Assembly (NCBI GenBank): GCA_018434325.1
Contig: JAHDPO010000024.1
Location: 1 to 64,000, forward strand
DNA: 64,000 bases
Origin: Clostridia bacterium
GTDB lineage: Bacteria; Bacillota; Peptococcia; DRI-13; UBA5745
Reading direction: 5' to 3'
The notes below the pieces were generated by a model that did no database searches, was not told where the DNA came from, and saw nothing but the letters and a program-made list of their open reading frames with translations. Of this stretch, positions 39,921-43,566 are shown in pieces. A program made the translations under genes and the position numbers. The number at the start of each line of letters is the position of its first letter. Position 1 is the first letter of the stretch.

Positions 39921-40892
39921 TCAGCCTTTCTGGCGGAAGGTAATCAGCTTCAGCATCAAAAAGGTGACCGGCATACCGATGGCCGCCGCCAATAAAAAAG
40001 CCAGCAGCTTACTGAAGCCCGCCCAATAATAGACGACAAATACAATGATATTTTGGATGGCGAAATTCGGCAGATAAGACAAGCAGAAGCTGCCGTATCT
40101 TTTGAAGGAAAGGCTTTTTCTGAACGTAAACCTGCTGTTGAGCAGATAAGAAACCGTCAGGCTGCTGAGATAGCCGGCGACGAAGGCGGGGCTCACCGGC
40201 AAGATCAAGGAGTAAAGCAGCGAAAATATGACGCCGTTTACGGCATTGATCAGGCCGATGACGAAGAATAGGGCAAATTGGCGGCTAAAAAAATGTTGCA
40301 ACCAGCCCGGTTTTTTGGCGGCCGCCGGCGGCTGACTACCCCAAGGCAGCAGCGTTTCCCCCGCCACCAGATAGCTTTTCTTCGCTATAGCGGCCATCGG
40401 GCCGTCCGATAAAGAATCCGAATAAAAACCTTCAATCTCCTTGTGGGGATAGTCCGCCCTAAACCGGCGGACTTTTTCTTCGCCATAACAATTGCTGCCC
40501 TGATAATGGCCGGTCTGGGGATCCACCGGCGAAGCGATCAGGTTCACCACTCCCAGCCGGCGACAGGCCTCTTCCAATAGAAAAGCCGGCGAGGCTGAAA
40601 TGATCAAATCGTCGGGCCGCTGCCAAACCTTATAAAAATGCTTGATTTTTTTAATATTGCGGCGCCAAAAATCATAGACGAAATTCTCCATGTCCGGCAA
40701 TCCCTGAAAGAACACATAAAACCGCTGTTTGCACTGGGTCTTGTCGATGCGACCCAGGCGATAAAGCAGCAAAGCCCAGGCCTGCCTAGGCCAATATCTG
40801 GCCAGAGACCAGCGGTTTTGCAGACAGTACCAGTAAAAGTCCTTCGTACTGTCACCGTCATAGATGGTGTCATCAAAATCGTAAACGTTCAA
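39921..40892 (-). CDS. HAD phosphatase - GtrA membrane domain fusion
   Basis: A 323 aa two-domain protein. Residues ~1-195 are a HAD-IB (SerB-like) phosphatase: nucleophile motif VYDFDDTIYDGDST (DxDxT), motif II ISASP and motif IV YSDSLSDGPM. Residues ~205-320 form four membrane helices of the GtrA family, which flip or help use polyprenyl-phosphate sugars. Beside a polyprenyl-phosphate phosphoribosyltransferase, the phosphatase half would remove the 5-phosphate and the GtrA half would move the lipid-linked pentose outward (inference). A TTG start at 40892 after AAGAGGGCGAAGCG is preferred; TTG 40910 is an alternative. It starts 24 bp after the UbiA gene. Confidence 0.85.
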   Translation of the reverse strand: MNVYDFDDTIYDGDSTKDFYWYCLQNRWSLARYWPRQAWALLLYRLGRIDKTQCKQRFYVFFQGLPDMENFVYDFWRRNIKKIKHFYKVWQRPDDLIISASPAFLLEEACRRLGVVNLIASPVDPQTGHYQGSNCYGEEKVRRFRADYPHKEIEGFYSDSLSDGPMAAIAKKSYLVAGETLLPWGSQPPAAAKKPGWLQHFFSRQFALFFVIGLINAVNGVIFSLLYSLILPVSPAFVAGYLSSLTVSYLLNSRFTFRKSLSFKRYGSFCLSYLPNFAIQNIIVFVVYYWAGFSKLLAFLLAAAIGMPVTFLMLKLITFRQKG

Positions 40893-40916
40893 CGCTTCGC
40901 CCTCTTCCAAGCCTCA

Positions 40917-41816: not shown

Positions 41817-43502
41817 TTAGCCCGGGTAATAAGCCAAGCCAAATTCGATCAGCTGCCGGATGCCGGCCATATTCATCCAGGCTATAATCAGCACCAGAGC
41901 TATGCCCAGCCCCCGCCGCAGCCGGGGCCGCCGGGCCAGCAGCTTCATCCACCCGCCATAAAGCAAGGAAAGCAGCGCCCAGGAAAAATACAGCGTATAA
42001 AGAATCATGCCTTGTTCTTTGGCGCCCCAACCCAGGCCAACCAAAAGGCAAAAGGAAAAAAGCAGCCAGGCCAGACAAAGCTGGAAATAGGGTTCTTTTT
42101 TATATAACAGAAAGGCTGCGGCAGCCAAGGCCAGCAATACAGGGCCCAGCCAGGCCAGTCCCTGCTCAGGAGCCAGCTGCCAGGAAATCTGATCGAAAAC
42201 ATTAGGGGTAACGACAGCCTCCGGCGCCATCAGACAGTTAGCGAGGAAGCCCCAATACTGCCGGAGCTTTTCGCTCAACGGCAGGCTGGTACCGGCAAAA
42301 CGCAAGATTCGGGGCAGGGAGGCTCCTGCCTCCCAAAGCAGCGGCAGCTGGCCGAAAACCGTCAGGCAGGCCAGAAAGACCAAGCCTGTGCGGATCATCG
42401 CCCCAAGGCCCTGGCGCAAGCCCTTACCTCTCAGGGTAAAAAGCAGGAAGAAACCGCTGGTCAGCATGCTGCCGGCAGCACCGGCAAAACAAAGGGGCTG
42501 CCACAGCCAAGGCTGCTCCCCAGCCTGCCGGACGGTAGAGTTTGCCCGGCCGGCCAGATTTTCCCGGCAGAGGGAATAAATAAAGAGCAAGAGCCAAAAC
42601 AAAGCAAAGATATATTGCTCTAAGTTTAGAATAAATAAAAGCGCAGGGTAACTGCCAAAGTATAGGCCCAAAAAAATCAGCTGATCAAGGCCTCTGAGCT
42701 TTAGCAGCCGGGAAGCCAGAATCATGGAAAAAGCCAGAGCCGCCGCCTGCAAAGAGGCTAAAGCCAAAGCATAGGCCGGCAAAGTGCCGCCAAAGCAATA
42801 AGCAATCCAGGAAGCAACGATTCCAAAGGGCAGGGCAAAAAGGCCAAAAAGCGGCTGCCGCAAATCATTTTCCGCCGCGTTAATATTGATATAGACATTG
42901 GTTTGCAGATGAATTCCCGTATCGCTGGTAAAAACGGTGTCATATTTATTGGCCTGGCCCGCCGCCGCCGGCTGGTAAAATAAATTTGTCCGACTATAAG
43001 CCGGAAAAATCAACAGCAAAGCAAGCACCACTGCCGCCAGCCAGAAGCCCTTCTCTCCACTCGTCATTTCCCGAATAAAAGGCAGGCCGTAAAGCCTGAA
43101 AACCTTAACCAGCCAGTAAAAAGCTATCCATAAGGCCACCATCGCCAAGACTGTCAGCAACGTTTTCGTCAAAGGCAGAAGCCGTTGCCATAAACCGGCA
43201 TCCAGCCCAGGGTAACGAGAAGTGTAGGCGATCAGCAGCTGCCAGAGCTTTTCAAAACGAAAATAGAAGTAGCTCATAAAAATTTTGGCCCCGCTATAAG
43301 CGAAAGCCAAAGCCAAGCCGGCAGTGATCCAGGAAAAAGGTCGGATCACTTGCTCCGGCAGTCCCCGTCGGAAGGCCAGCCAGACAAAAAGCAAAAAAGA
43401 TAATGCCACACCAAGAAACCCGGCTGCAACAGGGCCTCTCAGTGTGGTCAGAAGCGTCATCACAGTAACAGACAATACAAACAACAAGCGAAAAAAGGCC
43501 AC
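41817..43502 (-). CDS. Polytopic GT-C-like glycosyltransferase
   Basis: A 561 aa membrane protein with about 12-14 helices, first in the operon. Between early helices it has an outside loop, YDTVFTSDTGIHLQTNVYIN followed by AAENDLRQPLFG, with acidic residues of the kind that form the active site in GT-C enzymes using polyprenyl-phosphate sugars (ArnT, arabinosyltransferases). I do not recognise a characterised family. Co-transcription with the DPPR synthase-like and HAD-GtrA genes (10 bp gap, then 24 bp) suggests it transfers the lipid-linked pentose to an outside acceptor. GTG start at 43502. Confidence 0.72.
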   Translation of the reverse strand: MAFFRLLFVLSVTVMTLLTTLRGPVAAGFLGVALSFLLFVWLAFRRGLPEQVIRPFSWITAGLALAFAYSGAKIFMSYFYFRFEKLWQLLIAYTSRYPGLDAGLWQRLLPLTKTLLTVLAMVALWIAFYWLVKVFRLYGLPFIREMTSGEKGFWLAAVVLALLLIFPAYSRTNLFYQPAAAGQANKYDTVFTSDTGIHLQTNVYININAAENDLRQPLFGLFALPFGIVASWIAYCFGGTLPAYALALASLQAAALAFSMILASRLLKLRGLDQLIFLGLYFGSYPALLFILNLEQYIFALFWLLLFIYSLCRENLAGRANSTVRQAGEQPWLWQPLCFAGAAGSMLTSGFFLLFTLRGKGLRQGLGAMIRTGLVFLACLTVFGQLPLLWEAGASLPRILRFAGTSLPLSEKLRQYWGFLANCLMAPEAVVTPNVFDQISWQLAPEQGLAWLGPVLLALAAAAFLLYKKEPYFQLCLAWLLFSFCLLVGLGWGAKEQGMILYTLYFSWALLSLLYGGWMKLLARRPRLRRGLGIALVLIIAWMNMAGIRQLIEFGLAYYPG

Positions 43503-43536: not shown

Positions 43537-43566
43537 ATTATATATGATAAATTTACACAGAATCAA
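43537..43566 (-). promoter_or_regulatory. Promoter of the glycosylation operon
   Basis: TTGATT (43566-43561) and TATAAT (43542-43537) on the minus strand with an 18 bp spacer, about 35 bp before the GTG start of the GT-C gene. Confidence 0.6.

Follow-up and report, generated by a model that had tools for sequence, protein, structure and literature searches.

A HAD-IB phosphatase and a GtrA membrane domain are joined in one protein of a Clostridia bacterium, encoded behind a DPPR-synthase-like UbiA gene and a DUF6080 gene on contig JAHDPO010000024.1 (the whole 64,000-nt stretch analysed is called the window). Both domains are present, the catalytic residues of the phosphatase are invariant, the operon order recurs in other genomes, and the fusion is under purifying selection. 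The three genes probably form a compact extracytoplasmic pentofuranosylation system, whose reactions, sugar and acceptor we infer, and this reading is given a probability of about two in three; action of the fusion on the lipid product of the neighboring synthase is comparably probable. Cell surface decoration with five-carbon sugars is a pathway of a known kind, and the fusion of a phosphatase with a putative flippase is a new arrangement of the known three-component glycosylation pathway, tying trimming and export of a lipid-linked pentose together more directly than gene order alone. The host is a spore-forming bacterium.

The fusion protein and its operon

Table 1. Features of the three-gene unit, in window positions
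Feature	Position	Strand	Basis
HAD-IB phosphatase (about residues 1-190) with four-helix GtrA domain (about 205-321)	39921..40892	(-)	Pfam, alignment, AlphaFold model and fold comparison, dN/dS
UbiA-family decaprenyl-phosphate phosphoribosyltransferase (DPPR synthase / PPPRS) homologue, 296 aa	40917..41807	(-)	NF008978, conserved residues
DUF6080 multi-membrane-helix protein, 561 aa, putative extracytoplasmic pentofuranosyltransferase	41817..43502	(-)	PF19558, hydrophobic segments, gene position
Sigma-70-like promoter match TTGATT-18-TATAAT preceding the unit	43537..43566	(-)	Consensus match only

The fusion is a single open frame with a TTG start at 40892 and a stop at 39921, exactly where a preliminary description of this DNA had placed it; a further in-frame TTG lies upstream at 40910, and the start at 40892 is favored because homologues begin MNVYDFDD in the alignment. 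That description had also claimed a full HAD signature followed by four GtrA-like helices, and its account of the domains was borne out. The Pfam search places PF12710 at 9-173 (E 8.9e-21, 75.6 bits, cut-off 27) and PF04138, GtrA_DPMS_TM, at 215-325 (E 4.6e-13, 49.8 bits, cut-off 26.1), both numbered from 40910, and both folds are visible in the AlphaFold model (mean pLDDT 93.9). The HAD half scores above the cut-off of TIGR01488 (55.1 bits, cut-off 45) and below that of TIGR01490 (62.3 bits, cut-off 98.3), and every one of the 22 HAD rows has the catalytic residues D5, D7, T9, S101, K140, D159 and D163 (counting from 40892). By PF12710, TIGR01488 and the HAD motifs, the protein is assigned to subfamily IB of the HAD superfamily, and phosphatase activity is predicted. 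A PDB sequence search with the fusion gave no matches. Fold comparison of the model aligned residues 1-192 with HAD-IB structures (3fvv_A, Z 18.4, 3.3 A, 188 aligned), and the comparison also listed the polysaccharide ribofuranosyl transferase 7shg (Z 9.5, 4.4 A, 171 aligned). The profile of the window HAD family matched the HAD-UbiA protein of pNGR234a with 13 bits (E 1.7e-5 among six proteins). A kinship with the phosphoribose-phosphatase (PRP) domain of HAD-UbiA fusions that goes further than the motifs shared by all HADs is possible on these figures.

Behind the phosphatase half come four membrane helices, both in the model and by hydropathy, and residues 199-321 are best matched in structure by a dolichyl-phosphate-mannose synthase, in its membrane domain (5mlz, Z 16.9, 2.1 A, 120 aligned). 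G213, N252 and F269 are invariant in 11/11 rows of the GtrA half, and K315 is kept in 10 of them. Profile, helix number and modelled fold assign this half to the GtrA family, with a putative flippase role. A simple hydropathy and charge count puts positive charge on the HAD half, the helix 2-3 loop and the C-terminus, and therefore, by the positive-inside rule, the phosphatase would lie on the cytosolic side.

Comparison of the window with its nearest relative (L031) gave dN and dS values of 0.035 and 0.727 for the HAD half, 0.077 and 0.795 for the GtrA half, 0.027 and 0.502 for UbiA, and 0.139 and 0.943 for DUF6080, and therefore both halves of the fusion and both neighbors are kept. A frameshift or stop-loss artefact is ruled out, as the fused frame is found again in two other genomes (G412 and G405), and purifying selection acts on each half.

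The gene order on the minus strand is DUF6080, UbiA and fusion, with gaps of 9 nt and then 24 nt. The promoter-like site ahead of them belongs to a scan that found 5 such sites when 3.4 were expected by chance. The UbiA protein barely exceeds the cut-off of NF008978, the decaprenyl-phosphate phosphoribosyltransferase model (208.5 bits, cut-off 207), and is under those of the sister models NF008977 and NF008976. Its residues N62, D63, D66, D70, R184 and E187, which make up the N-D-x2-D-x3-D and R-x2-E motifs, are invariant in 13/13 aligned rows and are spaced like N247, D248, D251, D255, R366 and E369 of Citrobacter ORF15, the residues tested in PMC11127046. By equivalog model and motifs, the protein fits a predicted DPPR synthase / PPPRS.

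The DUF6080 protein (PF19558, 28.8 bits, cut-off 27) has 12 hydrophobic segments and a conserved acidic loop, YDTVFTSD...ENDLRQP. It may be a GT-C glycosyltransferase. Its model, built from a two-sequence alignment, has a pLDDT of 38; alignment-based searches matched no PDB sequence up to E 1 and nothing in viral_contigs, and hhalign gave no profile link to PMT_2 proteins (Prob 0.6). Nothing on DUF6080 was found in openly licensed papers. A function as the transferase is plausible and would be the first testable role attached to this family. Together, a predicted synthase, a putative exporter and a putative multi-helix transferase are encoded side by side, as in a three-component pentofuranose system.

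Divergent from the operon lies a gene for a collagen-like repeat protein (PF01391, 43830-45362, plus strand). Its candidacy as the acceptor is unsupported, as L031 and L159 carry a 586-aa gene at the same place and have no collagen gene there.

Recurrence and origin of the fusion

All 46 genomes of the class were searched, and the fused protein was found in three of them (G000, G412 and G405) from two families, G405 belonging to another family of the order than the window genome. The order DUF6080-UbiA-[HAD-GtrA] is kept in 3/3, with the fusion directly after the DPPR-synthase-like gene each time; the preliminary description would have been refuted by fusions lying mostly away from DPPR synthase genes, and these genomes do not refute it. 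Among 36 related loci in genome_contigs, L031 alone is fused to GtrA, and because its contig (JAHDMJ010000013.1) appears to be the same as that of G412, each measuring 188,578 bases, the distinct fusion genomes number three. At four other loci of that set, where the alignment extended beyond the HAD, a stop codon follows the HAD immediately. Across the phylum set, 13 of 398 genomes match the fusion protein, and both halves are matched only in the window's own genome. No HAD-GtrA fusion was found described in the openly licensed literature on GtrA, HAD and polyprenyl phosphate or on DPPR synthase and UbiA; in PMC11127046, the words 'fusion' and 'fused' are absent and GtrA occurs once. Elsewhere, a UbiA-adjacent HAD gene (L036:9998-10807) runs into a membrane-like, non-GtrA tail that is cut off where the contig ends, and may represent a fusion of a different kind.

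Two relatives of the window genome lack parts of the unit. G411, a congener with an 83% complete genome, has DUF6080-UbiA beside a DegV-like gene (named by likeness to the window's own), with neither HAD-GtrA at that place nor any HAD match in the genome. G406, of the same family and 85% complete, carries, in the syntenic position beside a convergent membrane-protein gene, a HAD of 71% identity, with none of the UbiA, DUF6080 and GtrA modules. The window and L161 do not pair as sisters in the trees of the HAD half. A topology that groups the three fused proteins was not rejected for the HAD in one set (p-AU 0.15) or for the GtrA halves (p-AU 0.15); with G406 added it was rejected for the HAD (p-AU 4e-6), and with G406 kept inside the group it was not (p-AU 0.26). 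The history would thus comprise either two fusions, or one fusion followed by loss of GtrA in G406.

Separate-gene relatives and the specificity of the HAD family

The same modules are found unfused in other bacteria. Plasmid pF27D of Lactococcus cremoris (NZ_CP068515.2) encodes a GT-like protein, a DPPR synthase, a HAD-IB phosphatase and a GtrA protein in the window's order, beside polysaccharide genes, but with HAD and GtrA as separate genes. The synthase is 47% and the HAD 44% identical to those of the window, the 462-aa GT-like protein is 27.6% identical to the DUF6080 protein (E 8.6e-36), and the annotated GtrA, of 83 aa, covers positions 2-68 only of the Pfam profile. The G232 cluster reads UbiA-HAD-acyltransferase-DUF6080-like-GtrA, with all four modules separate, and L042 reads GtrA-UbiA-HAD. 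G066, G335 and G376 have UbiA-HAD, then two small EamA/SMR-size genes (109 and 106 aa, the former EamA-like), then DUF6080. Two DUF6080-UbiA pairs, one of them accompanied by GtrA, occur in G311, which has no HAD. Through the fusion, ribofuranosylation that has so far escaped recognition is suggested for Gram-positive bacteria, and also for a plasmid of dairy Lactococcus. Consecutive 109- and 106-aa genes, a possible paired flippase, are present with HAD and DUF6080 in the DPPR synthase clusters L109, L111 and L115, and the 109-aa gene of L115 matches EamA.

These arrangements bear on whether the GtrA half transports the lipid or only holds it. It has to be considered, as a rather unlikely alternative, that this half is a clamp or scaffold that holds the polyprenyl chain so that the phosphoribose comes within reach of the HAD, as in archaeal dolichyl-phosphate-mannose synthase, or docks partners, and that another protein does the flipping. 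The 5mlz match would suit such a role, as would the three other GtrA genes of the window genome and the conflicting evidence, discussed in PMC8035078, on Rv3789 as flippase or AftA anchor. However, GtrA is a separate gene within the L. cremoris and G232 clusters and is replaced by the two small genes in G066, G335 and G376, and separate GtrA genes or EamA/SMR-size stand-ins fit transport better than the anchoring of a phosphatase that is unanchored elsewhere. Flipping by the GtrA half is plausible, and the fusion, with a soluble half for assay and a membrane half for deletion, could be used to find out if GtrA proteins move lipids or only hold them.

Co-occurrence was counted on two scales. 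NF008978 had 63 matches in 62 of the 398 phylum genomes, and the test covered 61 UbiA loci on 60 stretches, leaving out two weak matches (G307 and G142). A family HAD lies within about 4.5 kb on the same strand at 5 of these loci and a DUF6080-like gene at 7; all five HAD-bearing loci are among the seven, compared with 0/54 of the others. The Fisher p of 3.5e-6 serves as a guide only, since the loci are related rather than independent and some of them had served to train the profiles: those for HAD and GT drew on loci including the window, L016 and L017 (for GT also L109, L111 and L115), so that presence there is partly by construction. At 54 of the 61 loci none of the three other modules is nearby. 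The GtrA counts are lower bounds, because the GtrA profile is narrow and did not pick up the L. cremoris GtrA, which Pfam recognised. PF19558 occurs in 4 of the 398 genomes, beside the synthase in each.

Within the class, four genomes have both HAD and synthase, three HAD alone, one synthase alone and 38 neither; of the seven with a HAD match, three carry the fusion. The HAD is thus present in 4/5 synthase genomes, each time adjacent, versus 3/41 others (Fisher p 0.001). These figures count against an unlikely alternative, namely that a different phosphate ester, such as phosphatidylglycerophosphate, phosphoserine or a phosphorylated sugar, is the substrate of the HAD half, whose place in the operon would be a coincidence of position or shared regulation. 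The occurrence of the fusion in two families and of separate HADs adjoining the synthase in several lineages also argues against it. It draws on phosphoserine phosphatases among the nearest solved structures, on the G406 HAD without a synthase, and on close relatives that adjoin unrelated genes, namely those for a pseudouridine synthase, a PTS permease, MBOAT, a phosphoribosyltransferase-domain protein and an acetyltransferase.

Such mixed contexts of standalone relatives rule out the HAD subfamily as a marker of the DPPR-synthase pathway. UbiA-linked HADs are clustered in the tree (4 label changes versus 10.4 in shuffles) but do not form one clade there, and a single clade was not rejected in two versions of the test (p-AU 0.094 and 0.167). 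Therefore, the family looks recruited to the pentofuranose pathway rather than specific to it. The preliminary assignment of the fusion as the 5-phosphatase of the phosphoribosyl lipid pathway accordingly stands in part: its link to the pathway is backed by separate HADs beside synthases in other Firmicutes and on the Lactococcus plasmid, whereas the subfamily itself is not pathway-specific.

Standalone HAD relatives lie directly beside a pseudouridine synthase gene in L015, L186 and L054, possibly a separate functional group (called by Pfam for L015 and L054, and by sequence judgement for L186), and in L044, L056, L058, L060 and L061 that place is taken by a gene of about the same length.

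The proposed pathway and known systems

As proposed, the UbiA protein would use PRPP to load polyprenyl phosphate with phosphoribose on the cytosolic face, where PRPP and the active-site loops of UbiA proteins lie, as established for the family (PMC11127046). The HAD half, on the same face, would strip the 5-phosphate to give polyprenyl-phosphate-ribofuranose, which the GtrA half would bind and move, or hand, across the membrane, and the DUF6080 protein would transfer the ribofuranose to a surface acceptor. A stricter version is possible but doubtful, in which the GtrA half takes the lipid from the HAD site so that only 5-dephosphorylated lipid exits, and DUF6080 represents a new class of lipid-dependent pentofuranosyltransferase dedicated to polyprenyl-phosphate-ribofuranose.

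The sugar is likelier to be ribose than arabinose, as judged from gene content. With the DprE1 from L108 as the single query, G000, G412, G411, G405, G232 and G311 yielded partial FAD-domain matches or none, and nothing of full length; polyprenyl-phosphate-ribofuranose is therefore proposed rather than the arabinose lipid. It seems improbable that the pathway yields an arabinofuranose or xylofuranose donor by means of epimerase genes elsewhere in the genome. DprE1/DprE2-like pairs or epimerases do stand beside the synthase at other loci, such as L108, L112 and L177, but the three-gene unit has no epimerase, and the DprE1 search speaks against this too. L108 has a FAD oxidase, an SDR and a DUF212 PAP2-like protein near its synthase.

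The closest published system is that of Citrobacter youngae O1 (ORF15/ORF14/ORF12, GT136), as described in PMC11127046. Both would combine a polyprenyl phosphoribosyltransferase of UbiA type, in which the same residues are conserved, with a 5-phosphatase of the HAD superfamily, an exporter of the lipid and a transferase with many membrane helices, the roles in the window being putative. The HAD is fused to the synthase in Citrobacter and to a GtrA domain in the window; the Citrobacter exporter is MATE-type and its transferase GT136, whereas the third protein of the window is DUF6080 and its genome gave no LpxC match, which fits a cell without lipopolysaccharide. According to the same paper, the HAD domain of ORF15 takes off the 5-phosphate in vitro, and the D18A variant yields farnesyl-P-ribose-5-P with a small residue of farnesyl-P-ribose. 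A HAD phosphatase for this step had thus already been demonstrated, and to call the fusion the 'missing' phosphatase, as was done at first, is too strong.

The mycobacterial DPR/DPA pathway (Rv3806c, Rv3807c, DprE1/E2 and Rv3789) shares a DPPR synthase homologue and a GtrA protein with the window. Its phosphatase is, according to PMC11127046, a separate protein unrelated to HAD, whereas the predicted one of the window is a HAD fused to GtrA, and the mycobacterial pathway includes DprE1, of which one query found no full-length copy in the window genome. Glycosylation systems of the CsbB/GtcA/YfhO type in Gram-positive bacteria resemble the window in having a lipid-linked sugar donor, a GtrA-type protein and a multi-helix transferase (PMC7389260), but there the donor is made from a nucleotide sugar by a GT-A enzyme without a phosphatase step.

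Other gene families also accompany DPPR synthases. DUF212 'divergent PAP2' proteins (L108:11675-12106 and L112:10199-10603) are candidate 5-phosphatases at those loci, and DUF362 and LPG_synthase_TM genes recur near Firmicutes synthases, in clusters of 15 and 14 loci (L127, L120 and others).
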